Assembly: GCA_023423475.1 (NCBI GenBank)
Contig: JAFAFN010000036.1
Span: 1 to 20,715, forward strand
Source of the DNA: Actinomycetes bacterium
Lineage (GTDB): Bacteria > Actinomycetota > Acidimicrobiia > Acidimicrobiales > Microtrichaceae
Direction: 5' to 3'
DNA length: 20,715 nucleotides
The position numbers and the translations under genes were made by a program. Below, piece by piece: positions 4,801 to 20,715 of this stretch. Numbering within the stretch: position 1 is the first letter of the stretch; every line of letters starts with the position of its first letter. A model generated the notes under the pieces. It was given only the letters and a program-made list of their open reading frames with translations. It did not search any database and was not told where the DNA came from.

Positions 4801-7800
4801 CGACGGTGGCCCGTGGACCGACACCGGCTCGCTCTCGGACCGGTTCCTCATCTCCGGTCTCCAGAACTCGTCGACCTACCGCATCGAGGTCAGAGCGGTG
4901 AACGGTCGAGGCGCCAGCGCGTCGAGCTCGCCGGTCGAGGTCGCGATCCGCACCGCACCCGCGGCCGCAGAGGTCGGCTCGGTGACGCCGGGCGATCGCT
5001 CGCTCACCGTCGAGTTCACACCCGGTGACGACGGCGGCAGCCCGATCACCTCGTACGAGTACTCCACGGACGGGGGCGCCACCTGGCGGACCCGTACGAC
5101 GGGGACGACCGCGTCGCCCATGGTGATCACCTCGACCTCGGCGGGTGAGCCGCTCGACAACGGCGAGCTCGTCATCGTCCAGATCCGGGCCCGCAACGCC
5201 TCGGGTGCCGGTGACGCCAGCCGTTCCTCCCTCGTCGCTCCGTTGGGCGCACCCGATGCGCCGGGCGAGGTCGTCGCACTCGCCGGCGACGGTCGACTGA
5301 CGGTGTCATACGTGTCGGGCTCCGACGGCGGCTCCGCGATCACCGCCACCGAGTACCGCCTCGACGGCGGCCCGTGGACCTCCACCGGCTCGCTCTCGAG
5401 CCCGTTCTCGATCACCGGGCTCACCAACGGCGTCGAGTACGTCGTCGAGGTCCGGCTCGTCAGCGAGGTCGGCCCGAGCGATCCGTCGGCTCCGATTGCC
5501 GCGACCCCGAGCACGGTCCCCACGGCACCCACCTCGGTCGAGGTCACCGGCGCCGACGGCGTGGCACGCGCGACGTGGTCGGCACCGTCCTCCAACGGCG
5601 GCGCCGTGGTCGCCTCGTACACCGCGACGCTCTTCGACCAGCCGGTCGGCGGCATCGCGATCGCGTCGTGCACGGTGTCGACGACGTCGTGCGAGCTCGA
5701 CGAGCTCGACAACGGTCGGACGCTCTACCTCTCGGTGGTGGCATCCAACGTCGCCGGCTCTGGTGCCCCGAGCGCTCCACGCGTCTCGGTGACGCCCGTC
5801 GCTGCGCCGACGGTCGCGATCTCGTCGGTCTCGGTCGGTGCGAACCTCGCCCAGGTCGATCTCGACGTCGACGACGGCGGCGCTCCGATCTCGACCTTCG
5901 AGTACTCCCTCGACGGCGGCGCCTGGACGTCCGCCGCGACCTCGAGCGAGCCCGTGACCATCACCGGGTTGACCACCGGCCGGACCTACGCGGTGCGCTT
6001 CCGGGCGGTCAACGCGGTCGGAACCGGTGACGCCTCGGCGTCCGTCGACGTGACGCCGCGCACCACTCCCGGTGCGCCGCAGTCGCCCGTCGCGCAGTCG
6101 GGTGACCGCAGCGTCGCCCTCAGCTGGACCGCTCCCGCCGACGACGGCGGCGATGCCGTGGTCGACCACGTCGTGCAGTACGCCACGTCGGTCGGTGGAC
6201 CGTTCGTGCCCTTCGACGACGGGATCTCGGCCGCGGGTAGTGCGACCGTGACCGGGCTGACCAACGGCACCGAGTACTTCTTCCGTGTCGTCGCAGTGAA
6301 CGGCGCAGGCTCCGGTCTGCCGTCCCCCGTGGTGGCGGCGACGCCGCTCGCCGCGCCGAGCGCTCCGGCGATCACCACCCTCAATCCTGGCAACCGCTAC
6401 CTCCAGCTCACCTTCACCCAGAGCACCTCGAACGGCGGCTCGGCGATCACCCGCTACGAGTACTCCCTCGACGGTGGCACCTGGCGGCCGCTGCCCACGA
6501 TGGCGACCACGCAGAACATCACCGGTCTGGACAACGGCCACCGCTATTCGGTGATGCTGCGCGGGGTCAACGCCGTCGGCGGCGGAGCACCGTCGACCGC
6601 GGTGTTGGCCACCCCGTACGGACTGCCCGGTGCGGTGCAGGGCTTCCTGCCCTCGCCCGGCACCGGCAACGTGACCCTGACGTGGGACGAAGCGGACGCC
6701 AACGGCTCGCCGATCACCGCGTACAACGTCGTCCGCTGGTCGGCCCGCACCGAGGGATCGATCCTCGCGTCGTACCAGACGACCGGCACCAGCTACACGG
6801 TGCCCTCGTTGAGCAACGGCACGCACTACTTCACGATCGAAGCCACCAACGCGGCCGGCACCGGTCCGCGCAGCACACCTCGCACCACGACGATGGTCGG
6901 TTCCCCGGCGCCCGCTGCGCCGACGCTGGACGTCGTCCGGGTCCGCCCCGACGGGTCAGGCCGGTCGCTCGACCTCGTCTGGACGCCGGGTGCGCCGGGT
7001 GGCTCCGCCATCACCGGGTCGGTCGTCCGACGGATCCCTGCGACGGGATCGCCGGTGACCCTCGCGATGATCGACGGCACGTCGACCTCGACCACGCTCG
7101 CCCTGCCGACGCTCGTCGCCGGTGACCGCATCGCGGTCGCCAGTATCAGCGCCGTCGGCGTGGGTGCCTTCACGACGGTGTCGCCGGCAGTCGTCTCGGC
7201 CGCCCAGGTCGGCGACGTCACCACCGACTCCGCCACCGTCACGGCGACGGTCGCTGCGGGTGTCGACCCGGCTCAGGTCGTCGTCGAGTTCGCCGAGGAC
7301 GGTGCGTTCGGCACCTCCTCGTCGTTCCAGGTCGCCGCCGAGCCGTCGATCGTCGCAGCCGCGGATGGCTCCACGTCGATCACCGCGTCGAGCTCGGCGC
7401 TCTCACCGAACACCGAGTACCAGGCGCGTGTCGTCGCCTCGGCGGGGTCGGCACAGACCCAGGGGAGCCCGGTCGAGTTCACCACCGACGTCGGAATCTC
7501 GACCTCGGGACTGGAGCACGTCTACGACGGCGCCGCCCCCGAGCTGTCGACGACCACGTCGCCGAGCGGCATCGATGTCGTCCGCACGTTCGAAGGTGTC
7601 GACGGCACCGTCTACCCGATCAGCGACCAGGTCCCCGTCCGTGCCGGCACCTACCAGGTGGTCACCTCGGTGGCGCCCGGTCAGGGCAACGGCGTCGAGA
7701 CGACGCAGCTCGTCATCTCGCGTCGGGCGCTCACGCTCGACGTGTCCGCCGAGGGCAAGGTCTACGACGGGACCACCGACGTCGAGCTCGATCTCGAGCT

Positions 7801-8926
7801 CTCCGGAGCGGTCGACGGCGACGACGTCGCCATCGATGGCGATCGGGTGCGCGCCGCCTTCGCCCAGGCCGACGTCGGTCAGGACATCGTCGTGGACATC
7901 GAGACGGACGGCGACGTCCTCACCGGTGCCGACGCAGCGAACTACACCGTCGAGGCGCCCGAGTCGACCACGGCGTCGATCGTGGCCTTCACCCAGTCGC
8001 TGTCCTTCGACGGTGATGTGCCCGAGGACCTCGAGATCGGCGAGACCTGGCGACCCGAGGTGAGCTCCGATGCGGGCCTCGTCGTGTCGGTGATGATCGC
8101 GGTCGGCGACGGCGCCACGTGCGAGCTCGTCGACGGCGAGCTGCGGGCCCTCGCCGAAGGGATCTGTGCGGTGATGGCCACGCAGGCCGGCAACTCCAAC
8201 GTCACCGCGGCACTCCCGGTCGTCCGGCTCGTGACCATCCGGGCCGTGACGGTCCCCCCGACGACCGTGCCACCGACCACGGTCCCCCCGACCACGACGG
8301 AGCCTCCGACGACGACCGCTCCGACGACGACCGCTCCGACGACGACGGTCCCGACCCCGACGACGGCGCCGTCCACGACGCTGCCGCCGCGGACCCCCAC
8401 GCCGCCGCGGAACCCGACCACCTCGGTCCCGACCACGACGGCGCCCGCGCCCACTCCGACGATGCCGCTGCCCGGTCTTCCCGGTGGTTCGGCGGACCCG
8501 TCGGAAGGAGAGGGTGGGCTGTCCGGCCGTGCCGGGGGCTCGGGACGTCTCGACGACGAGGCCGAGGCCGCTCGTCGGGCTGCTCGTGCCCGAGCGTCGG
8601 ACCGGACCGTGGGCACCGCTGGTGACCGCGGGTCCAGCCGGACCGACGGACTCGCTCCGGGATCGCTCGGCTCGGCCGACGGCTCCGACCCGACGTCGGC
8701 GACGTCGTCCGGTGGCGCCGGCGGTGCGGGTGCCGGCGATCGTGACGCCGACGCTGCAGGTGAGGACGAGGTGGTCGGTCTCGGCGAGGAGATCGCCGGA
8801 CCGCTCGACGGTGATCCGGCGGGATCATCCACCGTGCGCGTCGCCTGGTGGTGGGTGCCCACGGCTGTCGCCCTCGCCGCCTGCCTCTGGTTCGTCCTCC
8901 GCTCCGTGCGACGGACCCAGGAGTGA
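1808..8926 (+). CDS. Giant secreted surface protein: glycine-rich (ALK/LTK GRD-like) domain, ~17 FN3 domains, MBG/YDG domains, Thr/Pro stalk, C-terminal membrane anchor
   Basis: A 2372-residue protein, probably exported by Sec and held at the cell surface. Residues 1-42 are a signal peptide (Arg-rich start, hydrophobic core ALLALVVLAATVV, cleavage near PAVA-A). Residues ~43-300 are a glycine-rich domain with runs such as GGGGGAATVVRL and LVAAGAGGGGG and one Cys pair (VCSPGYNC), resembling the PF12810 domain of ALK/LTK receptors and many bacterial surface proteins. Residues ~301-1896 hold about 17 FN3 domains of 85-100 residues, each with the GLTNGTxYxxxVRAVNAxG signature and a (T/V)PxAP linker; the last is divergent. 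Two MBG/YDG-type domains follow (GLEHVYDGAAPEL, EGKVYDGTTDVELDLELSG; ~1895-2060), then an Ig-like segment (~2061-2148), a Thr/Pro stalk (~2149-2224), a low-complexity charged region, and a membrane helix (VPTAVALAACLWFVL) with an RRTQE tail. No LPXTG precedes the helix. Likely roles are adhesion or matrix building, which is inference. ATG 1808 has no clear ribosome site; GTG 1862, just before the hydrophobic core, is the alternative start. Confidence 0.9.
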   Translation: MLHSAWDTSRRHTTRITPVRGALLALVVLAATVVPFAEPAVAATLTRTFGYTAGTQTFEVPPGVHSLTVTLSGAQGGRGGPDTHGQPTPGGYRGVVTGSVDVTPGQVLTIAVGSGGANGNKGTNLIGGVGGLNPLSGYDGAQGGRSGTVGGSGAGGGGGAATVVRLHGVDGAADVDLVAAGAGGGGGNGQFLPVIGRQAESQHSPRPDATSTDGRRGKDAAAVCSPGYNCDGGGSGAGGAGVQGGDHGDVQYGGATATEYFGFGGYPGSNGIAGMATLSETYEFFADNGGAGSVVISYDSGTPGAPTRLSGTPRPGGVDLVWSEPSSSGSSAIDDYLVWYSTSPSGPFTAVADGTSTATSATVNGLTNGTTYYFRVAAVNSYGTGSNSAPMSVGVMPSDVPSAPRLDRLVASDSSLLAEITPGATHSPVIGYEYRLDGGTWVGAQAVSNRIEIGGLTNGTTYEVEVRARNAVGASSESGQLSGTPRAVPSTPSGLVVTPGDASVQLRWDAPAATNGSPIQDYVIERATSSSGPYSVVPDGVSVATTATVTGLTNGTTYHFRVAAVNAAGAGAATTPGAAVPFTLPSAPSISSVDPVDGGLRVTLTQPSNGGSAVLRYEYRLGSTGQWISTGTTATTFAVSGLTNGVAQAIQVRAVNAAGAGDASTERTATPRSTPGAPAISTVALDTGAIDVEFSLGADGGSPITNYEYSLDGGSTWTSRVPASSVSPLNISGLIGGRTYEVALRAVNAAGPGAASNVSTVVAKGTPDAPRSVTVTAGDRSLSASFDAPANGGSPITNYEYSLDGGDTWQARVPASTSSPISITGLTNGTSQQVRIRAVNGVGSGEPSATVSATPRTTPGAPTIDADTVVGVDGQLDVVFSAPSSNGGSAITTYEYSTDAGRTWRRRDVGTTGSPLVISTLSSDGTTALSGGEVYPVELRAVNAAGAGAASAVADGITTTVPDAPSILDATALDGAASIEMDLPANGGSAIVRYEYRLDGGPWTDTGSLSDRFLISGLQNSSTYRIEVRAVNGRGASASSSPVEVAIRTAPAAAEVGSVTPGDRSLTVEFTPGDDGGSPITSYEYSTDGGATWRTRTTGTTASPMVITSTSAGEPLDNGELVIVQIRARNASGAGDASRSSLVAPLGAPDAPGEVVALAGDGRLTVSYVSGSDGGSAITATEYRLDGGPWTSTGSLSSPFSITGLTNGVEYVVEVRLVSEVGPSDPSAPIAATPSTVPTAPTSVEVTGADGVARATWSAPSSNGGAVVASYTATLFDQPVGGIAIASCTVSTTSCELDELDNGRTLYLSVVASNVAGSGAPSAPRVSVTPVAAPTVAISSVSVGANLAQVDLDVDDGGAPISTFEYSLDGGAWTSAATSSEPVTITGLTTGRTYAVRFRAVNAVGTGDASASVDVTPRTTPGAPQSPVAQSGDRSVALSWTAPADDGGDAVVDHVVQYATSVGGPFVPFDDGISAAGSATVTGLTNGTEYFFRVVAVNGAGSGLPSPVVAATPLAAPSAPAITTLNPGNRYLQLTFTQSTSNGGSAITRYEYSLDGGTWRPLPTMATTQNITGLDNGHRYSVMLRGVNAVGGGAPSTAVLATPYGLPGAVQGFLPSPGTGNVTLTWDEADANGSPITAYNVVRWSARTEGSILASYQTTGTSYTVPSLSNGTHYFTIEATNAAGTGPRSTPRTTTMVGSPAPAAPTLDVVRVRPDGSGRSLDLVWTPGAPGGSAITGSVVRRIPATGSPVTLAMIDGTSTSTTLALPTLVAGDRIAVASISAVGVGAFTTVSPAVVSAAQVGDVTTDSATVTATVAAGVDPAQVVVEFAEDGAFGTSSSFQVAAEPSIVAAADGSTSITASSSALSPNTEYQARVVASAGSAQTQGSPVEFTTDVGISTSGLEHVYDGAAPELSTTTSPSGIDVVRTFEGVDGTVYPISDQVPVRAGTYQVVTSVAPGQGNGVETTQLVISRRALTLDVSAEGKVYDGTTDVELDLELSGAVDGDDVAIDGDRVRAAFAQADVGQDIVVDIETDGDVLTGADAANYTVEAPESTTASIVAFTQSLSFDGDVPEDLEIGETWRPEVSSDAGLVVSVMIAVGDGATCELVDGELRALAEGICAVMATQAGNSNVTAALPVVRLVTIRAVTVPPTTVPPTTVPPTTTEPPTTTAPTTTAPTTTVPTPTTAPSTTLPPRTPTPPRNPTTSVPTTTAPAPTPTMPLPGLPGGSADPSEGEGGLSGRAGGSGRLDDEAEAARRAARARASDRTVGTAGDRGSSRTDGLAPGSLGSADGSDPTSATSSGGAGGAGAGDRDADAAGEDEVVGLGEEIAGPLDGDPAGSSTVRVAWWWVPTAVALAACLWFVLRSVRRTQE
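3903..3949 (+). repeat. 47-bp exact repeat, copy 1 (FN3 domain 5)
   Basis: This stretch encodes the GGSPITNYEYSLDGG core and is identical, base for base, to 4179-4225 in the next domain. The copies are 276 bp (92 codons) apart. Neighbouring domains spell the same motif with different codons, so the identity points to a recent duplication or gene conversion. Confidence 0.85.
4179..4225 (+). repeat. 47-bp exact repeat, copy 2 (FN3 domain 6)
   Basis: Identical to 3903-3949, one 276-bp domain step downstream. The match ends at 4226, where the two domains go on as SLDGGSTW and SLDGGDTW. Confidence 0.85.
8304..8346 (+). repeat. 15-bp tandem repeat (about 2.9 copies) encoding PTTTA in the Thr/Pro stalk
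   Basis: The unit CTCCGACGACGACCG repeats in frame and gives PTTTA PTTTA PTTTV. It sits in a 230-bp low-complexity segment (about 8250-8480) of Thr/Pro codons, probably an extended, O-glycosylated spacer that lifts the FN3 array off the membrane. Tandem units of this sort can change in number without shifting the frame. Confidence 0.75.
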
Positions 8927-8928
8927 GC

Positions 8929-9507
8929 TCAGGCTTCGGGCGGCGCAGCTGCGCCGTCCGAAGCCGCGAGCAGCTCGACCAGGTGCGCCTCGAGCTCACC
9001 GAGCTCGACGACGTCCTCCTGGGTGATGCCGAGCGGGCCGGGGAAGAGCGTGGACGCGATGGATCCGGCGACGGTCCGCAGGGCCATGCCCCTGGCGCGT
9101 CGGGGCTCGAGGCCGTAGGTCGTCACGTAGATCTCGGCGATGCGGTCGAGGATCGGCGTGTCGACCCGACCGTCGAACACCGAGGGGTCCGCCGCGATGA
9201 GCCAGTTCATCAGCTGCGTGGTCATGCGAGCGTGCTCGACGACCTGACCTCTGCCGAGCGGCGGGGTGAGCTCGCGTGCGATCTCGGCGTTGAGCTCCTC
9301 GTGCACCGCGAGGAACAGCTGGATCTTGCCGCCGAACCACGCCTGCACCATCCGATGGTGGTGTCCCGAGGCCTCGGCGATCTGGCGGACGGTGATCTCG
9401 TCGGGACTCTGGTCCTCGAGCAACGAGATCGTGGCTTCGATGATGTTTCTTCGGCCTTGGTCCCGCGGAGTCCTGGTCCGAGCCGGCGGCTGCGGACGAG
9501 CACTCAT
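8929..9507 (-). CDS. TetR-family transcriptional regulator
   Basis: A 192-residue protein of normal TetR length. After a basic N-terminal tail (TRTPRDQGRR), the helix-turn-helix covers about residues 38-61 (ITVRQIAEASGHHHRMVQAWFGGK), with the usual aromatic-FGGK end; the triple His in the recognition helix region is uncommon. The remaining ~130 residues are the helical ligand/dimer domain, whose ligand cannot be read. ATG 9507 is chosen because a TACCAT -10 box ends 8 nt upstream, which leaves room for little or no leader; the frame stays open further up but without protein-like sequence. It diverges from the F420-type oxidoreductase across 102 bp, so that gene is its most likely target. Its 3' end contains the palindrome shared with the giant gene's end. 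Confidence 0.88.
   Translation of the reverse strand: MSARPQPPARTRTPRDQGRRNIIEATISLLEDQSPDEITVRQIAEASGHHHRMVQAWFGGKIQLFLAVHEELNAEIARELTPPLGRGQVVEHARMTTQLMNWLIAADPSVFDGRVDTPILDRIAEIYVTTYGLEPRRARGMALRTVAGSIASTLFPGPLGITQEDVVELGELEAHLVELLAASDGAAAPPEA
8932..8965. terminator. 34-bp palindrome at the giant gene / tetR convergence, likely bidirectional terminator
   Basis: The sequence is self-complementary over 34 bp with one mismatched pair (8940/8957); its core CGGCGCAGCTGCGCCG (8941-8956) is perfect. It starts 6 bp after the giant gene's stop and lies wholly inside the last codons of the convergent tetR gene, where it encodes the end of the protein. No T-tract follows on either strand. It can fold as a very stable hairpin in both transcripts. 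Confidence 0.6.
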
Positions 9508-10060: not shown

Positions 10061-11208
10061 TCGACCCCGGCGCGCTCGAGTGCCTCGCTCACCCGGGCGA
10101 GCCAACCGAAGCGATCCTCGGCGATACCGTGCTGCACGTCGAGCAACTGGCGGCGCAGCGCGATGGTGACCGGGCCGGGCTCGCCGTCACCGATGACCAG
10201 TCGCTCGCCCTCGTCGACGAGCGCGCCGATCGGTGCGATGACCGCGGCGGTGCCACAGGCGAACATCTCGAGCAGTGAGCCGTCCGCGAGCCCCTCGCGG
10301 ATCTGGTCGATCGACGTCGGCTCGACGACCATCTCGTCGATGTCGACGCCCGGCACCGCGGAACCGTCGCCCTCGGCGTCGCTGGCCGCGAGCTGCAGGA
10401 GCGAGTCCCGGGTGACACCTTCGAGGATGGTGCCGGTCAGCGGGGGAGTGCTCACCACGGTGCGTCCGTCGCGTCGCCAGACGAACACGACGTTCATCGC
10501 GTTGAGCTCCTCGACCCAACGGTGCTCGACCGAGTCGAGCCAGAGGACCTGGTCGTGTCCGGCTGCACCCGCGCGTCCGTGTGCGGCGAACCCCGCGGCG
10601 TAGTTGCCGGCGAACTTCGCGGCGCCGGTGCCACCGGGCGTCGCTCGGACGTCTCCGCGTTCGACGCCCACGGTGATCGCTGCGAGACGGTCGCCGAAGT
10701 AGTTGGCGACCGGCGACGCGATGATCACGAAGAGGTACTCGTTCGCCGGGCGGACCGACAGGTGGGGCTCCGAGCCGAAGATGAACGGCCGCACGTACAA
10801 CGCCGCGCCGTCCTCGGCCGGCACCCAGGCCCGGTCCGCGCCGACGAGCAGCGCACAGCCGAGCTCGAAGGCGCCATCGGGCAACTCCGGGATCGCGATC
10901 CGGCGAGCGCTGGCGGCCATGCGCTTCGCGTTGGTGTCGGGACGGAACAACGCAGCGGTGCCGTCCGCGAGGGCGTAGGCCTTCAGCGCTTCGAAGATGG
11001 ACTGCCCATAGTGGAGTGCGAGGGTGCCGGGACTGAGGGAGAGCGGTGCGAACGGCTGCAGCTCGAGCGGGCCCCAAGCACCGTCGGCGTAACGCATCAC
11101 GACCATGTGGTCGGTGAAGGTCTCGCCGAACACAGGAGCGGCGAGCAGTGCCTCGCGTTCGGCGTCGGGGAGCGGCGTGGGGTTCTGGGAGATGCGGACC
11201 TCGGTCAC
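10045..11208 (-). CDS. ilvE: Branched-chain amino acid aminotransferase
   Basis: A fold-type IV PLP aminotransferase (387 residues from GTG 11208) that interconverts leucine, isoleucine and valine with their 2-oxo acids, using glutamate/2-oxoglutarate (EC 2.6.1.42). The PLP lysine lies in ATPGGTGAAKFAGNYAAG (Lys ~198 from this start). Other BCAT landmarks are LHYGQSIFEALKAY near residue 70, YVRPFIFGSEPHLSV near 140, the EELNAMNVVFVW block and the C-terminal FACGTAAVIAPIG block that binds the cofactor phosphate. Length and motifs match actinobacterial IlvE. GTG 11208 is chosen because its first bases overlap the TGA of the upstream DUF1697 fragment (GTGA), a usual coupling geometry; TTG 11226 would add six residues. 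Confidence 0.92.
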   Translation of the reverse strand: MTEVRISQNPTPLPDAEREALLAAPVFGETFTDHMVVMRYADGAWGPLELQPFAPLSLSPGTLALHYGQSIFEALKAYALADGTAALFRPDTNAKRMAASARRIAIPELPDGAFELGCALLVGADRAWVPAEDGAALYVRPFIFGSEPHLSVRPANEYLFVIIASPVANYFGDRLAAITVGVERGDVRATPGGTGAAKFAGNYAAGFAAHGRAGAAGHDQVLWLDSVEHRWVEELNAMNVVFVWRRDGRTVVSTPPLTGTILEGVTRDSLLQLAASDAEGDGSAVPGVDIDEMVVEPTSIDQIREGLADGSLLEMFACGTAAVIAPIGALVDEGERLVIGDGEPGPVTIALRRQLLDVQHGIAEDRFGWLARVSEALERAGVDLRPQ

Positions 11209-11480
11209 GGCACCAGCTTCGTCCAAGTGGCCGCCATCTCGGCGCTGGTACGGATCTGCACCGCAGCGGACAGGCCGACCGCCTCGTGGAGCGCCGTCGA
11301 GATCGCAGCACCGAGGTCGTCGACGAATCCGTCCGGTGGTTCGAACACCACGTTGCCGCGCTGGAGGTACGTCCCCACGTCGGTACAGCCGAGTGATTCG
11401 ACGACCGCTCTCAGGTCGGCCATCGGCAGCCGTCGGTTCGGACCGAGGTTGACGCCACGGAGCAGACCGACGACTCGCAT
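11205..11480 (-). pseudogene. Half-length DUF1697 protein (truncated)
   Basis: Ninety-one residues match the N-terminal half of DUF1697 proteins: VVGLLRGVNLGPNRRLPMADLRAVVESLGCTDVGTYLQRGNVVFEPPDG, then the start of the second segment (VQIRTSAEMAA). Full members are about 170-180 residues; here the frame stops after TWTKLVP, directly against the ilvE start (4-nt overlap), and no remainder of the domain is seen in any frame because ilvE takes over. The C-terminal half therefore appears deleted. It may still be translated, and its stop may feed ribosomes into ilvE, so it could survive as a leader cistron. The family's function is not established. Confidence 0.7.
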
Positions 11481-11486
11481 CCGTCC

Positions 11487-11492
11487 ACCGTA
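11487..11492 (-). promoter_or_regulatory. -10 box (TACGGT) for the DUF1697 fragment-ilvE unit, leaderless type
   Basis: TACGGT on the minus strand ends 6 nt before ATG 11480, so the transcript would start at the start codon. This would be the promoter of ilvE as well, through the GTGA overlap. Confidence 0.45.
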
Positions 11493-11547
11493 CGACGCCG
11501 CCCGGTCACGGACCCTCTCGATCGAACTGCAATGACATGTCGAGCTT

Positions 11548-11584
11548 TGGTGCGAGGGTGACCGAATCAGTCACTCTCGCACCA
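11548..11584. repeat. 15-bp-stem orphan hairpin
   Basis: TGGTGCGAGGGTGAC (11548-11562) pairs with GTCACTCTCGCACCA (11570-11584) around the 7-nt loop CGAATCA; the stem is complete except for one G-T pair. No intact gene ends here on either strand, so it is either the terminator of a gene since lost or a REP/MITE-like dispersed palindrome. The region 11481-11682 holds no gene I can support. Confidence 0.6.
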
Positions 11585-11682
11585 CACCTCGACCCGTACC
11601 TCGAGGTTCAGCTGCTGCACTGCCGCCGAGATGCCGGTCCAGGGCCACCTGACGTGCGCCCTCCCTGCGTACGGGGCCGTCG

Positions 11683-11830
11683 TACGCTCGGCGGCCGTGG
11701 AGCTGCGTGTGGGATGCCCGATGTGGGCGCACAAGGGCTGGTCGGGGACGTACCTGCCCGAGAAGCTCGGACGCAGCGAGCAGATCGCGGCCTACGCCAG
11801 CTGGTGCACGAGCGTCGAGGGCAACACCAC
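11683..11830 (+). repeat. Direct repeat copy A: 5' end of DUF72 gene plus its promoter
   Basis: 148 bp matching 12317-12464 with 9 mismatches (about 94% identity) and no gaps, at an offset of 634 bp. The match begins at the TACGCT -10 box, 14 bp before the GTG start, and stops abruptly after codon 44. Sequence outside the two copies is unrelated. Confidence 0.9.
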
Positions 11831-11918
11831 TCATACAGCGTGTTACACCAGCATCCTGAACAGTTCGAGGTACGCCGAATTCGCCAGGTGGAGCAGCGAC
11901 GTTCGTCGGTACCGTTGA
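11697..11918 (+). pseudogene. Truncated DUF72 (YecE-like) gene fragment
   Basis: From GTG 11697 this reads VELRVGCPMWAHKGWSG and on to SVEGNTT with only two amino-acid differences from the intact gene at 12331 (Lys to Thr and Gly to Ser). After residue 45 it leaves the family and runs on through 28 unrelated residues (HTACYTSILNSSRYAEFARW...) to a TGA at 11916. The barrel of a DUF72 protein needs some 240 residues more, so this copy cannot be functional as such. The tail after 11831 is less GC-rich than its surroundings, which suggests foreign origin. The promoter box is kept, so a short peptide might be made. Confidence 0.8.
11910..11915 (+). promoter_or_regulatory. -10 box (TACCGT) of the 127-aa gene, leaderless type
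   Basis: TACCGT ends 7 nt before ATG 11923 and overlaps the stop codon region of the DUF72 fragment. There is no ribosome site before the ATG. Confidence 0.45.
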
Positions 11919-11922
11919 CGTC

Positions 11923-12306
11923 ATGTCGGAGACTCCCGAGGAGCTGGGCCGCCGACTCGTCGCAGAGATGGGTCGCCCCCGAACGGAAGAGGAGTTCGAT
12001 GACTCGGCGACCGCGGCCTTGCGCTGGGGCGCCGAGGACCTCGACGACGATGCCGTCTGGCGGGCACTGTTGGCAGCGCTCGACGCGGCGCAGGAAGATG
12101 GCGACCTCTTCCTGATCGCGGACGGCATGCTCTTCGAGTCGGTGTTCACTCGGGACGGATTCCACTTGCAGTTCGAGCAGCTGCTGACCGCAGGCAACGC
12201 GAAGGCCATCCGACTCGTCGAGGTGATGTCGACCGAGAAGTGGAACTGGGAAGGTCCCGAGATGGTCGCTTGGTGGCAGGGGATGCTGGCGCTACGACCG
12301 AGTTGA
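11923..12306 (+). CDS. Small acidic protein of unknown function, carried between DUF72 repeats (tentatively DUF6869-like)
   Basis: A 127-residue, acidic, probably all-helical cytoplasmic protein: MSETPEELGRRLVAEMGRP, then DDAVWRALLAALDAAQEDGDLFLIADGMLFESVFTRDGFHLQFEQLLTAGN and a Trp-rich end (KWNWEGPEMVAWWQGMLALRPS). The middle recalls the DUF6869-type pattern in which a short helical protein carries an IAxGxLExhL stretch, but I hold this only as a possibility. There is no signal peptide or membrane segment. It lies between the two 148-bp DUF72 repeats and has its own apparent leaderless promoter, so it travels as a one-gene cassette. Small acidic helical proteins in such positions are often immunity or orphan defence-type proteins; nothing in the sequence proves that. 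Confidence 0.7.
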   Translation: MSETPEELGRRLVAEMGRPRTEEEFDDSATAALRWGAEDLDDDAVWRALLAALDAAQEDGDLFLIADGMLFESVFTRDGFHLQFEQLLTAGNAKAIRLVEVMSTEKWNWEGPEMVAWWQGMLALRPS

Positions 12307-12316
12307 GCGCCGCACC

Positions 12317-12322
12317 TACGCT
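12317..12322 (+). promoter_or_regulatory. -10 box (TACGCT) of the DUF72 gene, leaderless type
   Basis: TACGCT ends 8 nt before GTG 12331. The same box with the same spacing is kept in the truncated copy at 11683-11688. No ribosome site lies between box and start. Confidence 0.5.
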
Positions 12323-12464
12323 CGGCGGCCGTGGAGCTGCGTGTGGGGTGTCCGATGTGGGCGCACAAGGGGTGGTCGGGGAAGTACCTGCCCGAGAAGC
12401 TCGGTCGCGGCGAGCAGATCGCGGCATACGCCAGCTGGTGCACGAGCGTCGAGGGGAACACGAC
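12317..12464 (+). repeat. Direct repeat copy B: promoter and first 44 codons of the intact DUF72 gene
   Basis: Partner of 11683-11830. Of nine differences, seven are silent third-position changes and two alter the protein; the 14 bp upstream of the start are identical. Confidence 0.9.
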
Positions 12465-13182
12465 CTTCTACGGACTCCCCAGCGTCGAGACCGTCGCGAC
12501 GTGGGCCGCCGACGCGCCGAGCGACTTCCGGTTCGTGTTCAAGGTGCCCAGGACGGTCACCCACGACCGGCGACTCCGTGACGTTCGGGTCCAGGTGCGC
12601 GAGTTCCTCGACCGGATCGAGCCCCTCGGCGAACGGGCCTCGACGCTCTGGGTGCAGCTTCCGGCCTCGTTCGGGCCGTCGGACCTCGAGGTGCTCGATC
12701 GATTCCTGGCTCGCATGCCGGCGGCGCACCGCTACGGCGTCGAGGTCCGTCATCCGTCCTTCTTCGAGGACGGCGCCGACCGGCCACGTCTCGAGGACCT
12801 GTTGGTCCGACACGGCGCCGAGTGGATCTCGTTCGACACGACCACGCTGTTCTCGGCGCCACCGACCAGCGACGCCGAGCGAGAAGGTTGGAACCAGAAG
12901 CCGCGCCTGCCTCGGAGGACGGCAGCCCTGAGCGACGAGCCCGTGGTGCGCTACGTCGGTCGCGACGACGTCGAGGTCACCGAGTCGGGATGGCAGCCAT
13001 GGGTCGACGTCGTCGCTGGCTGGCTCCGCGAAGGACGGCGTCCCACGTTCTTCCTCCACACGCCCGACAACGACGACGCCCTGTGGCTGGCCCGACGGTT
13101 CCACGATCAGGTCCGTGCGCTCGTGCCCGACGTCGCGCCGCTGCCGACGCCGGTCGACGCAACCCCTCCGACGCTCTTCTGA
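12331..13182 (+). CDS. DUF72 family protein (YecE-like)
   Basis: A 283-residue TIM-barrel-like DUF72 protein of normal length. Family landmarks are the opening LRVGCPMWAHKGWSGKYLP, YASWCTSVEGNTTFYGLPS (about residues 34-52), FRFVFKVPRTVTHDRRL, LWVQLPASFGP, the YGVEVRHPSFF strand (about 135-145), WISFDTTTLF and the PVVRYVGRDD strand (about 205-214). The biochemical role of DUF72 is not established; some members have been linked to metal or nucleic-acid chemistry only by fold. The start is GTG with no ribosome site, but the TACGCT box 8 nt upstream fits a leaderless start, and the same start is conserved in the duplicated fragment. The C-terminal ~20 residues (Pro/Thr-rich) look disordered. It converges on arsC with 12 bp between the stops. 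Confidence 0.9.
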   Translation: MELRVGCPMWAHKGWSGKYLPEKLGRGEQIAAYASWCTSVEGNTTFYGLPSVETVATWAADAPSDFRFVFKVPRTVTHDRRLRDVRVQVREFLDRIEPLGERASTLWVQLPASFGPSDLEVLDRFLARMPAAHRYGVEVRHPSFFEDGADRPRLEDLLVRHGAEWISFDTTTLFSAPPTSDAEREGWNQKPRLPRRTAALSDEPVVRYVGRDDVEVTESGWQPWVDVVAGWLREGRRPTFFLHTPDNDDALWLARRFHDQVRALVPDVAPLPTPVDATPPTLF

Positions 13183-13194
13183 CGGTGGCCGACC

Positions 13195-13626
13195 TCATTG
13201 CAGGGCTGTCCCCGCGTTGGGCTCGACGTCGAGATCGGTGAGCAGCTGCTCCACGCGCCGTCGGATCTCGTCGCGGATCGGGCGCACGCCGTCGAGCGGG
13301 CGCCCAGCAGGGTCGGGGAGGGGCCAGTCCTCGTAGCGAGTGCCCGGCACATACGGGCAGCTATCGCCACAGCCCATCGTGACCACGACGTCCGCGGCGT
13401 CCAACTGCGCGTCGCTCCATCTCGTCGGGGTCTCGTCAGCGATGTCGATGCCGACCTCGCGCATGGCATCGACCACGCTGGTATGCAGCACGTCGGCGGG
13501 TTCGCTGCCGCCGCTGAACGCGGTGGCACGGTCGCCCGCGAGGTGGCGGAACCAACCGAGTGCCATCTGGGATCTCCCTGCGTTGTGGATGCAGAGGAAC
13601 AGCACGGAGGGGTGATCGGAGCTCAT
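13195..13626 (-). CDS. arsC: Arsenate reductase, low-molecular-weight phosphatase type (probably mycothiol-dependent)
   Basis: A 143-residue cytoplasmic enzyme reducing As(V) to As(III). The phosphatase-type loop CIHNAGRS starts at Cys12 with Arg18, the general acid Asp is in WPLPDPAG (Asp105), and a second Cys pair lies at MGCGDSCPY (Cys86, Cys90). The loop spelling CxHNAGRSQMA is that of the actinobacterial arsenate reductases/arsenate-mycothiol transferases rather than the thioredoxin-linked Staphylococcus type; the CGDSC pair leaves a thioredoxin-style disulfide relay possible, so the electron donor is open. ATG 13626 overlaps the TGA of the channel gene (ATGA), so the last two genes of the operon are translationally coupled. 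A longer upstream frame is only sequence inside the channel gene. Confidence 0.92.
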   Translation of the reverse strand: MSSDHPSVLFLCIHNAGRSQMALGWFRHLAGDRATAFSGGSEPADVLHTSVVDAMREVGIDIADETPTRWSDAQLDAADVVVTMGCGDSCPYVPGTRYEDWPLPDPAGRPLDGVRPIRDEIRRRVEQLLTDLDVEPNAGTALQ

Positions 13627-14333
13627 CTGTCCTTCTCGGGATGGAGGTAGCGGTCGAGCGCGACGGCGAGCGAGCACCCGAGGATCTGGGCGGCGATGAA
13701 GGTCGGTGCGGAGGACGGAGCGATCCCCGAGAACGAGTTCGTGACGGTGCGGGCGATGGTGACCGCGGGGTTCGCGAAGCTGGTCGAGCTGGTGAACCAG
13801 TAGGCGGCGGCGATGTAGGCGCCGACCGCGACGGCGGTCATCTCTGCTCTCGGTGAGCGCGTCACACCGAGGATGACGGTGATCAGCCCGAAGGTGGCCA
13901 CGACTTCTGACAGCCTGGCGCCGGCGCTGATTCGCTCGTGGGTGGACCAGGTGGCCGCCGGAAGGTCGAACATGAGGTTCGCGACGACCGCTCCCGCAAG
14001 GCCACCACCGAGCTGGACCACGGATTCGAGCGCGCCGTGACCGGGTCGCAGGTCGCCGTCGAGGACGGCGACCGCCGACACGATCGGGTTGAACCGTGCG
14101 CCGGAGACGTGGCCGAAGGTGAGGATGAGCGCGGTCAGTCCGGCCCCGGTCGCCGCAGCGTTCTCGAGGAGCTGGAGTCCGGTGTCGGTCGACAGCCGTT
14201 GGGCCGCGATGCCAGAGCCGACGACGATCGCGACGAGGAAGGCGGTGCCGACGAACTCCGCGGTCAGGCGACGGCCGAGACTCGCCCCGGGGACCCCGAG
14301 CTCGAGCTCGGTGCCGAGCGTGGTGTCGGACAC
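13623..14333 (-). CDS. aqpS: MIP-family aquaglyceroporin, arsenic type (AqpS-like)
   Basis: A 236-residue, six-helix channel of the aquaporin superfamily in the cytoplasmic membrane. The first half-helix motif is changed to SGARFNPIVS (NPI instead of NPA), the second is SFANPAVTIAR (NPA kept). The residue right after the second NPA is Val, where water channels have the pore-constricting Arg; arsenic-locus channels such as Sinorhizobium AqpS share this kind of open, neutral filter. Such channels let As(OH)3 and methylarsenicals leave down their gradient. It starts with GTG 14333, one base after the arsI stop, and overlaps arsC. No ArsB or Acr3 pump is found in the window, so this is probably the export step. 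The frame upstream of 14333 is shadow sequence of arsI. Confidence 0.85.
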   Translation of the reverse strand: MSDTTLGTELELGVPGASLGRRLTAEFVGTAFLVAIVVGSGIAAQRLSTDTGLQLLENAAATGAGLTALILTFGHVSGARFNPIVSAVAVLDGDLRPGHGALESVVQLGGGLAGAVVANLMFDLPAATWSTHERISAGARLSEVVATFGLITVILGVTRSPRAEMTAVAVGAYIAAAYWFTSSTSFANPAVTIARTVTNSFSGIAPSSAPTFIAAQILGCSLAVALDRYLHPEKDR

Positions 14334-14334
14334 C

Positions 14335-14787
14335 TCAGCAGCAGGCGGTGGGCTCGGGTGCGGTGCTGCAACAGCTGGCGTCGCCGCCGGGCTCGACGCC
14401 CCGGAGCTGGCCGGCTGGCATCTCGGCATCCGCGAGCACCGTGTAGATCTCCCACGCCTCGCCGTCGGGTCCGTCGGTCCAGACCTTGTCCTGGATGGCG
14501 AAGCAGCACGACACCTCATCCTCGACAGCGGTGCCGAGGCCGGTGGTGGACAGTCGATCGACGGCAGTCCTCACGTCGTCGGTCGATGCGACCTCGACGC
14601 CGAGGTGGTTGAGCGATCCGGGGTCGCCGGCTCCCTCGATCAGCACCAGCTTCAACGGCGGATCGGCGATCGCGAAGTTCGCGTAGCCGTCGCGGACCTT
14701 GGCGGGGCCCGTGCTGAACAGTTTCGTGTAGAAGTCGATCGCCTCATCGAGGTTCGAGACGTTGAGTGCGAGCTGTACTCGTGACAT
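14335..14787 (-). CDS. arsI: ArsI/CadI-family VOC protein, probable C-As lyase
   Basis: A 150-residue vicinal-oxygen-chelate dioxygenase. ArsI is an Fe(II) enzyme that splits the C-As bond of trivalent methyl- or aryl-arsenicals, giving As(III). Conserved positions are visible: the likely metal ligands Gln5, His61 (NHLGVEV) and Glu113 (AWEIYTVL), and the adjacent cysteines Cys94-Cys95 (VSCCFAIQDKVW) that bind the substrate arsenic. The tail ends in a Cys-rich segment (SCCSTAPEPTACC), as in many ArsI proteins. ATG 14787 has GGAGG 11 nt upstream; the longer reading frame would cross the operators. First gene of the minus-strand operon arsI-aqpS-arsC, divergent from arsR. CadI, a cadmium-induced relative, is the alternative name. 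Confidence 0.9.
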   Translation of the reverse strand: MSRVQLALNVSNLDEAIDFYTKLFSTGPAKVRDGYANFAIADPPLKLVLIEGAGDPGSLNHLGVEVASTDDVRTAVDRLSTTGLGTAVEDEVSCCFAIQDKVWTDGPDGEAWEIYTVLADAEMPAGQLRGVEPGGDASCCSTAPEPTACC

Positions 14788-14811
14788 CGGGTGTGCATCC
14801 TCCGTAGGCTG

Positions 14812-14863
14812 ATCGACGATCGTCGATGTATTGATGTTCGTCAATGTATCGACGAACGTCAAT
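14812..14863. promoter_or_regulatory. Triple ArsR operator array between arsI and arsR
   Basis: Three 16-bp inverted repeats follow each other at an exact 18-bp step: ATCGACGATCGTCGAT (14812-14827, perfect palindrome), ATTGATGTTCGTCAAT (14830-14845) and ATCGACGAACGTCAAT (14848-14863). The consensus ATyGAcG-n-n-CGTCrAT matches the ATTGA...TCAAT sites bound by ArsR/SmtB regulators. The array fills the space between the two divergent starts, so ArsR probably controls itself and the arsI operon together. Confidence 0.75.
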
Positions 14864-14876
14864 ACGTGGAGGCGGA

Positions 14877-15218
14877 ATGGCTCAGGGACGGAAGAAGATC
14901 GCGACGCTCGGAGCGGCCGAGTGCTGTCCTTCCGTGCTCGACGCCCCGCTCGCCGAGGTCGATGCCGAGCAGCTCGCCCGTCGGTTCGCCGCGCTCGCCG
15001 ACCCGATCCGGCTCCGGCTGCTCAGCCTCATCGCCGCAGCGGACGAGGTGTGTGCGTGCGACCTGCTCGAACCCGTCGACCGGTCCCAGCCGACGGTGAG
15101 CCACCACACGAAGCTGTTGGCCGAAGCGGGCCTGATCGCGGGGGAGAAGCGCGGTCGCTGGATCTGGTGGAGGGTCGACGCCGATGCGATCGCCGAGCTC
15201 CGTGGAGTGCTGGGCTGA
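14877..15218 (+). CDS. arsR: ArsR-family arsenite-responsive repressor
   Basis: A 113-residue winged-helix repressor. Residues ~34-110 form the ArsR domain, with RFAALADPIRLRLLSLI, then the As(III)/metal site Cys59-Ala-Cys61 (DEVCACDLLEPV) at the start of the recognition region and SQPTVSHHTKLLAEAGLI as the DNA-reading helices. A second pair, Cys16-Cys17 (AAECCPSVL), lies at the N-terminus, the arrangement known from Corynebacterium glutamicum ArsR, where an N-terminal Cys pair with a Cys of the CxC region binds arsenite. Arsenite binding should release the repressor from the triple operator upstream. ATG 14877 has GGAGG 4 nt upstream; the in-frame ATG 33 bp earlier lies inside the third operator and is rejected. 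Divergent from arsI. Confidence 0.93.
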   Translation: MAQGRKKIATLGAAECCPSVLDAPLAEVDAEQLARRFAALADPIRLRLLSLIAAADEVCACDLLEPVDRSQPTVSHHTKLLAEAGLIAGEKRGRWIWWRVDADAIAELRGVLG

Positions 15219-16245: not shown

Positions 16246-17781
16246 TCAGTTCACCTGCCGGTCGCGACCCTCCCAGTACGGCTCGCGCAGCTTGAACTTC
16301 TGGAGCTTGCCGGTGGCGGTCCGCGCAAGCTCGTCGCGGAACTCGATCGACGTCGGGCACTTGTAGCGGGCGATGTTCGAACGGCAGTGCTCGAGCAGGT
16401 CGCTCTCGGTCACCCCGGCGGCGGGGTCGACCACGACCAGCGCTTTGATCGTCTCGCCCCACTTCTCATCCGGCACTCCGATCACCGCGACCTCGAGCAC
16501 CGCGGGGTGGGAGAACAAGGTGTCCTCGACCTCGATCGACGAGACGTTCTCACCACCGGAGATGATGACGTCCTTCTTGCGGTCCTGGATCGTGACGTAG
16601 TTGTCCTCGTCGATGAAGCCGCCGTCGCCGGTGTGGAACCAACCGTCGTCGAGCGCAGCGGCGGTCTCTTCCGGCTGGTTCCAGTAGCTCTTGAGCACGA
16701 CGTTGCCGCGGGCGAGCAGCTCGCCCTCGTCGTCCACCCGCATGCGGATGCCGATCGCCGGCGCGCCTTGGCGCGAGAGCTTGACGGCGCGCTCGGCCGG
16801 GCTCAGTCCGTCCCACTCGGTGCGCGAGCGGTTCATCGTCAACAGGGGAGCGGTCTCGGTGAGCCCGTAGATCTGGATGAACTCCCAGCCCAGCTCGGTC
16901 TCGACGCGCTCGATGGTGCGCGTGGGCGGCGGGGCACCCGCGACGACGACTCGCAGGCGGCCGTGTCCGGGGATCTGCCTCTCCCAGTCCTTGGCCGCGT
17001 CGAGCACCGTCGCGACCACCGCGGGAGCGGCGCACATCAGCGTGACGCCGTGGGCCTCGATGCGCCGCAGGATCTCCGGACCGTCGATCTTGCGCAGCAC
17101 GACCTGTGGCACACCGACGGCCGCCGTGGTGAACGGGAAGCCCCACCCGTTGCAGTGGAACATCGGCAGCGTGTGCAGGTAGACGTCGCGGTCGGTCACC
17201 GCGGCCTGCCAGCCGAAGGTCGCAGCGTTGACCCACAGGTTGCGATGGGTCATCTCGACGCCCTTGGGGCGAGCCGTCGTGCCGCTGGTGTAGTTGATCG
17301 TCGCCGTCGCATCCTCATCGGGCTCCCATGGCGTCGGCTGGATGTCGAAGCGGTGGATCAGCTCGTCGGTGTCGTCGCCGATCACGTATTTCTGTGGCGC
17401 GGTGACCTCGGCCAGCGAGTCCTCGAGCTCGGGGTCGACGAGCAGGATCTCGGCGCCCGAGTGGTCGACGATGTACTGCACCTCGTGGGGGTGCGGGCGG
17501 AAGTTGATCGGCACCGCAACCCGTCCCCAGCCAGTGGTCCCGTAGAGCAGCGTGAGCACCCGGGCGGCGTTCTGGGACACGATCGCCACGCGTCCACCGA
17601 CGGGCACGCCCAGCGCCTCGACCCCCGCGGCGAACGCAGTGGCGGTCTCGAGGACCTCCCGGTAGGTCAGGTCGCCGAGCGGCGGCGCGACCTGGTCGGG
17701 TTCGTCGATGACCCCGATCCGGTCGCCGTACACGAGCGCGGCCCGCTCGATGTGGTCTCGCGTGGTCAGTGGGACCTTCAT
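16246..17781 (-). CDS. Acyl-CoA synthetase (AMP-forming, FadD/DmdB-like)
   Basis: A 511-residue adenylate-forming enzyme that activates a carboxylic acid through an acyl-AMP to the CoA thioester (ATP to AMP and PPi). The ATP loop is NYTSGTTARPKGVEMTHRN (about residues 163-181), followed by LPMFHCNGWGFPF, the adenine motif YGLTETAP, the ribose-binding GDGGFIDEDNYVTIQDRKKDVIISGGENVSS hinge and the C-terminal catalytic lysine in ATGKLQKFKLRE. The FHCNGWGFP spelling is that of acyl-activating enzymes related to DmdB and plant AAE proteins; chain length and substrate cannot be fixed. ATG 17781 has AGGAGG about 8 nt upstream and overlaps the methyltransferase stop (ATGA), so the two are coupled. 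Confidence 0.9.
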   Translation of the reverse strand: MKVPLTTRDHIERAALVYGDRIGVIDEPDQVAPPLGDLTYREVLETATAFAAGVEALGVPVGGRVAIVSQNAARVLTLLYGTTGWGRVAVPINFRPHPHEVQYIVDHSGAEILLVDPELEDSLAEVTAPQKYVIGDDTDELIHRFDIQPTPWEPDEDATATINYTSGTTARPKGVEMTHRNLWVNAATFGWQAAVTDRDVYLHTLPMFHCNGWGFPFTTAAVGVPQVVLRKIDGPEILRRIEAHGVTLMCAAPAVVATVLDAAKDWERQIPGHGRLRVVVAGAPPPTRTIERVETELGWEFIQIYGLTETAPLLTMNRSRTEWDGLSPAERAVKLSRQGAPAIGIRMRVDDEGELLARGNVVLKSYWNQPEETAAALDDGWFHTGDGGFIDEDNYVTIQDRKKDVIISGGENVSSIEVEDTLFSHPAVLEVAVIGVPDEKWGETIKALVVVDPAAGVTESDLLEHCRSNIARYKCPTSIEFRDELARTATGKLQKFKLREPYWEGRDRQVN

Positions 17782-18449
17782 GGAGTCTCCTCCTGGGGAT
17801 CGAGCCTGATGGCGTGTCCGACGGTGAACCAGCTCCACGGACGCGGACCCTTCGCGTAGCGCTGTTCGAGGTGCTCGACCCGGAAGCCCGCCTCGGCGAC
17901 GAGGTCGCCCGGCTCCCTCGTCAGGTGGCAGCCGCCGCCGAAGCGACGCTGGGCGGGTTCGAGTCGGTCCTGCCAACGGCGCACCACCGCGTCGGGTGAT
18001 GCGCCGTGTTCGAGGAAGTGGAGCCGGCCACCCGGTCGCAGCACGCGGTGGACCTCGGCGAGCGCACGGCGGACGTCGGGGATGGTGCACAGCGTGAACG
18101 TCGTCAGCGCGCCGTCGCAGCTGGCATCGGGCAGCGGGAGCGACTGGCCGTCCAGCCCGACGTGCTCCACCATCAGCGCGCCGCCACCGCGTCGACGGGC
18201 CGCAGCGTCGATGTGGCGTTCCGATCGACGCCGGGCGAGCGCCGAAGGTTCGACGGCGAAGACGCGGTGCACCTCGTCGGGGTACAGCTCGACGTTGGCT
18301 CCGGATCCGAAGCCGAGCTCGACGACGGTGCCGGACAGTCCGTCGACGGCTCGCCGGCGCCACTTGTCCATGCCGGGGCTGGCGCACATGAGGTCGACGC
18401 AGCGGGGCAGCACTCGCTCGTCGTAGAACGACGCAGGTCCGGTGGCCAT
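17778..18449 (-). CDS. Class I SAM-dependent methyltransferase
   Basis: A 223-residue methyltransferase with the Rossmann fold typical of the Methyltransf_11 group. The SAM loop is VVELGFGSGANVELYP (about residues 42-57), the acidic end of strand 2 is FAVEPS, the strand-4 region is CDGALTTFTLCTIPDVRRALAEVHRVLRPGGRLHFLEHG, the usual spelling for ubiquinone/phospholipid-type and thiol-type small-molecule methyltransferases. The acceptor is unknown. It is the first gene of a two-gene unit with the acyl-CoA synthetase (4-nt overlap), so a lipid or fatty acid-linked acceptor is a reasonable guess. ATG 18449 follows a TATGGT box by 6 nt and has no room for a normal leader. Confidence 0.87.
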   Translation of the reverse strand: MATGPASFYDERVLPRCVDLMCASPGMDKWRRRAVDGLSGTVVELGFGSGANVELYPDEVHRVFAVEPSALARRRSERHIDAAARRRGGGALMVEHVGLDGQSLPLPDASCDGALTTFTLCTIPDVRRALAEVHRVLRPGGRLHFLEHGASPDAVVRRWQDRLEPAQRRFGGGCHLTREPGDLVAEAGFRVEHLEQRYAKGPRPWSWFTVGHAIRLDPQEETP

Positions 18450-20055: not shown

Positions 20056-20715
20056 TCAGTCGAGGTGCACGGTGCCCGACTGGGTGACGAGCTGGTCGAG
20101 CTCGAGCGGTCCGAACACGTCGCAGAGGGTCATCGCCGCCAGTCGTGCCGCATCGGCGAGCGCTGCGTCGGGAACGGTGGCCTGGTCCGCCTCGGGGCCG
20201 ATCCACGACACCGGGTGCCTCGCCGAGTCGAGCCCCGTGTCGTCGTCCGCGACGTTCCATTCGAGCCAGTAGTTGCCGCCGTGCTCGTCGTCCTCGTCGG
20301 GTGCGTTCCAGCCCAGGTCGCGGAGCCCTCGGCGTTCGTGCGTGCTCAGCGGCGGGTGACCACCGAGGTAGCGGTCGCCGACGGCCTCCGCTCGGAGCCA
20401 GTCCCCGTCCTCGGTGACGAACTGCACGTAGCGGCCCGAGTCGGGGATGTCGATCACCAGGTAGGTCGAACGCTCGCGCACCATGCGACGCAACCACCCG
20501 CCGACCTGCAGCTCGATGTCGGCGGCGGAGGTCGTGGCGATCGACAGGTGTTCGTCGTGCAGGCGCGTCGGGCGCTCGTCGGGAGCGGCGCCGACCTCGA
20601 CGCTCGGATCGATCGTGGCCACGAGGTCACGGAAGTGGTGCCCGAGCTGTGCGCGGTACTCCGAGAGCTCGAGGCGTCGACCGTCGGGGAAGCGCACGAA
20701 CGGGACGGCCACCAT
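20056..20715 (-). CDS. TY-Chap / YbjN-like peptide-binding chaperone-type protein (may be complete or cut at the window edge)
   Basis: A 219-residue acidic protein reading to the last base of the window, where an ATG is the first codon (MVAVPFVRFPDGRR); whether translation begins there or further out cannot be seen. The middle, YLVIDIPDSGRYVQFVTEDGDWLRAEAVGDRYLGGHPPLSTHERRGLRDLGWNAPDED, has the pattern of the T3SS-chaperone/YbjN-like TY-Chap domains: a strand carrying YVQF, an acidic AEAV(G/S)(D/N)RYL segment and an LxxLGW turn before a short acidic stretch and NYWLEW. In actinobacteria such domains occur singly or paired in proteins of unclear role. Its 3' end faces the hydrolase gene with 14 bp between stops; a 5-bp hairpin spans the gap. 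Confidence 0.65.
   Translation of the reverse strand: MVAVPFVRFPDGRRLELSEYRAQLGHHFRDLVATIDPSVEVGAAPDERPTRLHDEHLSIATTSAADIELQVGGWLRRMVRERSTYLVIDIPDSGRYVQFVTEDGDWLRAEAVGDRYLGGHPPLSTHERRGLRDLGWNAPDEDDEHGGNYWLEWNVADDDTGLDSARHPVSWIGPEADQATVPDAALADAARLAAMTLCDVFGPLELDQLVTQSGTVHLD

Follow-up and report, generated by a model that had tools for sequence, protein, structure and literature searches.

Partial duplication of a gene by incoming DNA has been described in E. coli. In a lacZ conjugation experiment, 56 of 60 recombinant clones gave a PCR sign that the homologous locus was partially duplicated, which was ascribed to single crossovers, and 4 of the 60 carried apparently illegitimate joints (PMC3240628). 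Islands at the 5' end of dusA, and SXT at prfC according to the same paper, leave a replacement 5' end when they insert (PMC8409611). The T6SS immunity-gene arrays of Vibrio cholerae have been explained by one-sided recombination similar to that proposed below (PMC5361080).

The locus studied here, at a DUF72 gene, resembles each of these systems in part. As in the E. coli lacZ products, foreign DNA would have caused a partial gene duplication, which is 148 bp long here and was 109–950 bp long in the 14 clones sequenced there (PMC3240628). That experiment was a designed conjugation, whereas here the event is deduced from a single sequence, for which no donor was found. As described for the dusA elements and for SXT at prfC, the target appears to be cut near its start, and promoter and N-terminus would come from the inserted side. 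The dusA elements, however, are described with an integrase, additional genes and an imperfect repeat of 21 bp (PMC8409611), whereas this locus has one orphan gene, a 148-bp repeat and no recombinase that we found. Like the V. cholerae arrays, it combines a broken gene end and an orphan small gene with a working gene. In those arrays the steps were seen by strain comparison and the genes have an effector/immunity role (PMC5361080), whereas the 127-aa gene described here is an orphan. As for the DUF72 family itself (PF01904), the intact gene belongs to it in full, and no adjoining truncated copy was seen in 36 other loci.

A truncated second start beside an intact DUF72 gene

The window, that is, the whole stretch of 20,715 nucleotides analysed, contains an ungapped direct repeat of 148 bp at 11683–11830 (copy A) and 12317–12464 (copy B), both on the plus strand and offset by 634 bp. 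The copies are identical at 139 of 148 bases and pair with E 1e-59 when the window is compared with itself by BLASTN. The second-ranked self-match (E 1.5e-23) lies within a repetitive 2372-aa ORF at 1808–8926, as do nearly all the lesser ones, the sole exception being a 34-base palindrome at 8932–8965. Repeat comparison and codon analysis showed that each copy has the first base of a TACGCT (TANNNT) box as its left edge and extends to DUF72 codon 44, and that the first T of the box is 14 bp upstream of GTG 11697 in A and GTG 12331 in B. TANNNT boxes about 12 bp upstream of the start have been taken as a mark of bacterial leaderless genes, including those of Actinobacteria (PMC3160421). It is plausible that the repeat includes a minimal promoter, an assignment based on the TANNNT box by itself, and the promoter of copy B is likely leaderless.

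An intact DUF72 gene of 283 aa (12331–13182, plus strand; ORF listing and Pfam) opens with copy B and matches the Pfam DUF72 profile over 12331–13179 with E 2e-54 and 185.2 bits, against a gathering score of 25.3. The ORF of copy A reaches 14.8 bits, below that score. In copy A, the start codon and 44 codons of what appears to be a truncated DUF72 allele are present, and then the DUF72 similarity ends; the DNA downstream of the break at 11830/11831 has no likeness to the DUF72 continuation. The reading frame extends from GTG 11697 to a TGA at 11916–11918, four bases ahead of the ATG of the 127-aa gene, a point that the first-pass annotation had not mentioned. On the other side, the 80 nt 5' of A are unlike the 80 nt 5' of B, scoring 8.5 when shuffles averaged 8.1 and reached 12.5.

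The interval between the copies

The 92 bp after copy A (11831–11922), delimited by base composition and the ORF listing, have 56.5% G+C against 70.2% for the window; they carry the frame of copy A to its stop and hold a TACCGT box at 11910–11915. Compared with the minus strand of the window, this stretch gave a best local score of 18.5 with scattered gaps, a value that none of 20 plain shuffles attained (highest 16.5); scores against four other targets were inside the shuffle range. The TACCGT box is 7 nt upstream of the ATG of the 127-aa gene and is the sole such site in the window, where 1.5 are expected by chance.

The 127-aa gene (11923–12306, plus strand) is an orphan with a predicted all-helical fold, as characterised by ORF listing, protein searches and a structure model. 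Its family is almost unseen, with two relatives, at 57% and 44%, among about 5.8 billion proteins in word-limited searches; both searches require shared words, and the second scored just the 7,998 candidates sharing most words. The protein has no family in Pfam, NCBIfam, PADLOC or PHROGs, and one of its relatives, P0123, which is encoded on a 6.2-kb contig, has one PHROG match with E 0.32. No relative was found among the plasmids, phages or IMG/VR contigs searched. We also searched a class sample of 395 genomes, taken from the class to which the locus L003, titled uncultured Acidimicrobiaceae, belongs, and a family sample of 33 genomes. A three-sequence profile matched 5 of the 395 class genomes at per-genome E values of 0.003–0.009, about the number expected by chance at that limit, and a single-sequence search matched one of the 33 family genomes (E 8e-4, 61 residues at 27%). 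The structure model, built with three sequences, is all-helical and confident (mean pLDDT 90.7), and it had no match in PDB or BFVD at E ≤ 0.001. One guess is that the protein is a small partner or regulator.

These results agree with most of what the first-pass annotation had said about the layout. The two 148-bp copies of the DUF72 5' end framing a single gene are present, and the roughly 90 bp of lower-GC sequence after copy A are real. Its description of copy A as "promoter and 44 codons" with an abrupt end is fair, though the promoter amounts to the TANNNT box. It had also credited the 127-aa gene with its own promoter; the gene stands, but the promoter is tentative, because 1.5 TACCGT-type sites are expected by chance.

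Signs of mobility and the neighbourhood

The Pfam scan of 17 proteins of the window turned up neither a recombinase nor a transposase; other ORFs overlapping the interval were judged by eye to be shadow frames and were left out of the family scan. ARAGORN found no tRNA in the window. An integrative element would carry a site-specific recombinase, and the only gene between the repeats matches no family. The DUF72 family does travel, because the window DUF72 protein matches PHROG 9933 (E 2e-63) and relatives occur in 164 plasmid records, every one below 60% identity. In IMG/VR there was no match to the window DUF72 or to the exact 31-base start of copy B. When positions 10500–14000 were compared with plasmids, 152 records had partial matches; among the eight of these listed, the ilvE, DUF72 or arsC-aquaporin sections of the window were covered at 65–72%.

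To the right of the DUF72 gene, at 13195–15218, there is an arsenic-type group of LMW-phosphatase (arsC-like), aquaporin-type, glyoxalase and ArsR-type genes. The arsC-aquaporin pair is also found on Streptomyces and Kitasatospora plasmids. To the left, a DUF1697 ORF (11205–11480, minus strand) covers just positions 3–87 of the 137 of its profile, and its stop overlaps, by eye, a possible GTG start of ilvE (GTGA), so that it is apparently a truncated gene that came to be coupled with ilvE. A strong hairpin at 11539–11593, between the DUF1697 ORF and copy A, has a 15-bp stem inside a longer imperfect one and folds 5.5 standard deviations better than 200 shuffles. Searched with one strict pattern as a family repeat, it occurred in none of the 33 family genomes, and Rfam gave nothing above the gathering score. 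Farther away, the 2372-aa ORF contains ten fibronectin type III stretches and YDG and MBG domains, with internally repetitive DNA; a proline/threonine-rich stretch and a hydrophobic C-terminus were noted by eye, and the product is probably a surface protein. The 34-base palindrome (94% self-complementary), between this ORF and a TetR-like gene, is probably a terminator. At the window end, an ORF at 20056–20715 (minus strand) has a match (E 2e-13) to the peptide-binding chaperone domain TY-Chap3.

Divergence of the two copies

The nine differences between A and B fall at seven third, one second and one first codon positions; seven are synonymous and two replace a residue. Residues at the replaced sites were counted in 120 DUF72 family proteins with simple ungapped anchoring. 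One site is highly variable (S in 6 of 120, G in 23 of 120), whereas at the other 110 proteins have R, four have T and two have K, one K being that of the window itself.

We simulated divergence with a simple model conditioned on nine differences, using 1500 runs per model and, as constraint, a nonsynonymous acceptance of 0.1 or 0.2. At most two residue changes and no stop were seen in 0.7% of runs if A had been dead since the split, and in 48% (acceptance 0.1) or 16% (0.2) if both copies were constrained. At least seven third-position differences were seen in 1.3% of runs if A had been non-coding since the split, in 0.1% if both were neutral, and in 52% or 22% if both were constrained. A coding-like pattern thus came up in about 1% of the simulations in which A was dead from the outset, as opposed to 16–52% of those with both copies coding, so that the two copies resemble alleles that diverged in a functional gene and not a fresh duplication; the argument uses nine differences and a simple model. 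As judged from its codons, A most likely belonged to a functional DUF72 gene during most of the period after it split from B, with truncation coming later. A recent tandem duplication with immediate truncation is disfavoured by the 1.3% of runs that gave at least seven of nine third-position differences under that model. The divergence pattern speaks for a meeting of two alleles, whether these were brought together by a donor or by an element or come from an old paralogous pair.

Other DUF72 loci

The nearest DUF72 proteins are database entries with up to 82% identity; another of them, at 79%, is encoded on a contig of up to 49.6 kb. In the class sample, DUF72 matches were found in 68 of 395 genomes at 75 places (best 54%), and in the family sample in a single genome, weakly. 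No close relative carrying the window's DUF72 gene was found among the loci and genomes searched, which include the 395 class and 33 family genomes. Other genes of the window were compared with the class sample as well: the AMP-binding (acyl-CoA-ligase-like) protein at 16249–17802 was matched best at 78% (G386) and then at 75% (G194), and ilvE at 68% (G262), with 7 of 395 genomes at E ≤ 1e-60. G386, G194 and G262 belong to the same family of 33 genomes, so the host of the window is probably a member of that family or close to it.

For 36 DUF72 loci, we searched the surrounding DNA with codons 1–70 and with the start region of each gene. They comprise 30 of the 75 class-sample places and six others; 14 are longer stretches of class genomes, and seven came from a separate homologue search, one of them being also the place in G001. 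At the DNA level, no second DUF72 5' end was found in the 36 loci at a match length above 25 bases; matches of 19–20 bases near the DUF72 starts of L011 and L032 were dropped as too short. At the protein level, a second start was indicated in L002 only (34 residues at 38%), and this match was taken as noise because its frame holds a stop. L002 is a contig titled Candidatus Melainabacteria; its DUF72 gene is 61% identical to that of the window, as close as actinobacterial ones, and the contig is perhaps wrongly binned. No nearby DUF72 pair was seen among the 36 loci, and none of the stretches contained ilvE, arsC, DUF1697 or the 127-aa gene.

Occupied sites thus number 0 of 36 distant DUF72 loci, the broken-frame match being dismissed, and the idea of the first-pass annotation that DUF72 is an insertion hotspot finds no support in them. 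Upstream DNA was just 0.6–1.5 kb in 15 of the 36, and the relatives are distant, at about 60% identity at best; for the latter reason, this evidence against a hotspot is weak and silent on strains of the same species. In a literature search for DUF72 with island or hotspot terms, none of the 15 papers listed out of 1,249 named DUF72, which is not proof of absence from print.

Origin of the layout

The layout is real and mildly unusual. With moderate confidence, we explain it best as a scar of one-sided recombination with related DNA in which a DUF72 5' end accompanied the 127-aa gene. Copy A would be what truncation left of the 5' end of one DUF72 allele, and B would belong to a second, diverged allele. 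In favour of this reading are the coding-like divergence, the dissimilar 80 nt upstream of the copies, the negative searches for a recombinase or transposase in the 17 proteins and for a tRNA, the want of a plasmid, phage or IMG/VR relative of the 127-aa gene in the sets searched, and the E. coli and Vibrio precedents. The donor would be a related genome with the 127-aa gene immediately 5' of the DUF72 start, whose DNA may have entered the chromosome by one-sided recombination, either as a circular molecule through a single crossover inside the shared 5' end, or by homologous exchange at DUF72 on one side and an illegitimate joint on the other. As a result, the native start (A) would be cut off, the 127-aa gene gained, and one complete DUF72 gene with its own probable leaderless promoter (B) kept. 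The layout, the divergence pattern and the failure to find a similar layout in 36 other loci are observations; we infer the donor, the direction, the mechanism and the non-involvement of a dedicated recombinase. Ordinary recombination suffices for the layout. A partial gene duplication adjoins unrelated DNA here, as expected of such a scar, and the divergence is coding-like, as it would be between alleles of separate lineages; no donor allele was found. Neither a donor nor an empty site was seen, and illegitimate joining is reported to be about 10^6-fold rarer than homologous recombination (PMC3240628), both of which count against the scar. So does the start of the repeat exactly at the -10-like box, a tidy boundary which a target-restoring element also explains.

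It is possible, though rather doubtful, that an old tandem pair of DUF72 genes flanked the 127-aa gene and diverged while both worked, and that a deletion later removed most of the first. This history would fit the coding-like divergence and make foreign DNA or a recombinase unnecessary, and the truncated DUF1697 gene nearby is a second case that shows deletions in this neighbourhood. However, copied upstream DNA should leave similarity 5' of both copies, which the 80 nt compared do not have, and the 36 loci contain no nearby DUF72 pair. We consider it unlikely that the locus is a target-restoring element or its remnant, which would insert at about codon 44 of DUF72 and supply a promoter and 5' end, its recombinase acting in trans or having been lost. 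A direct repeat of the target 5' end does stand at both edges, and the repeat covers just the unit from box to codon 44; DUF72 relatives in phage and plasmid sets (PHROG 9933; the 164 plasmid records) are also in keeping with it, although they are silent on insertion into the gene. On the other hand, the 127-aa gene that the repeats enclose lacks a match to any recombinase family, a second 5' end held up in none of the 36 loci, and the repeat, with its length and 6% divergence, differs from the 21-bp imperfect one of the dusA islands. The earlier proposal of an insertion with a replacement 5' end is retained for its geometry, but that geometry would also result, with no dedicated element involved, from one crossover or from one-sided illegitimate recombination with related DNA. 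The boldest form of the proposal, a tiny recombinase-free mobile unit of 634 bp and one orphan gene that carries a leaderless promoter and 44 DUF72 codons and spares the host gene on insertion, seems very improbable.

An assembly artefact, in which DUF72 loci of two strains were merged in one contig, is improbable as well. Alleles of two strains would resemble A and B, and the window seems to be the entire 20,715-base contig. Yet the nine differences are spread over the 148 bp, so that the copies have no very long exact stretch in common, and the DNA after the break does not resemble the DUF72 continuation; there is therefore nothing obvious to mislead an assembler at that point. The weights given to the scar, the duplication, the element and the artefact are our judgement.

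If the locus is an element, it is a very small one and would mark DUF72 as an insertion site. If it is the recombination scar that we favour, one more new gene would have been added beside a working gene by way of a short 5' segment common to both DNAs, a reminder that no element is needed for a layout of the target-restoring kind.
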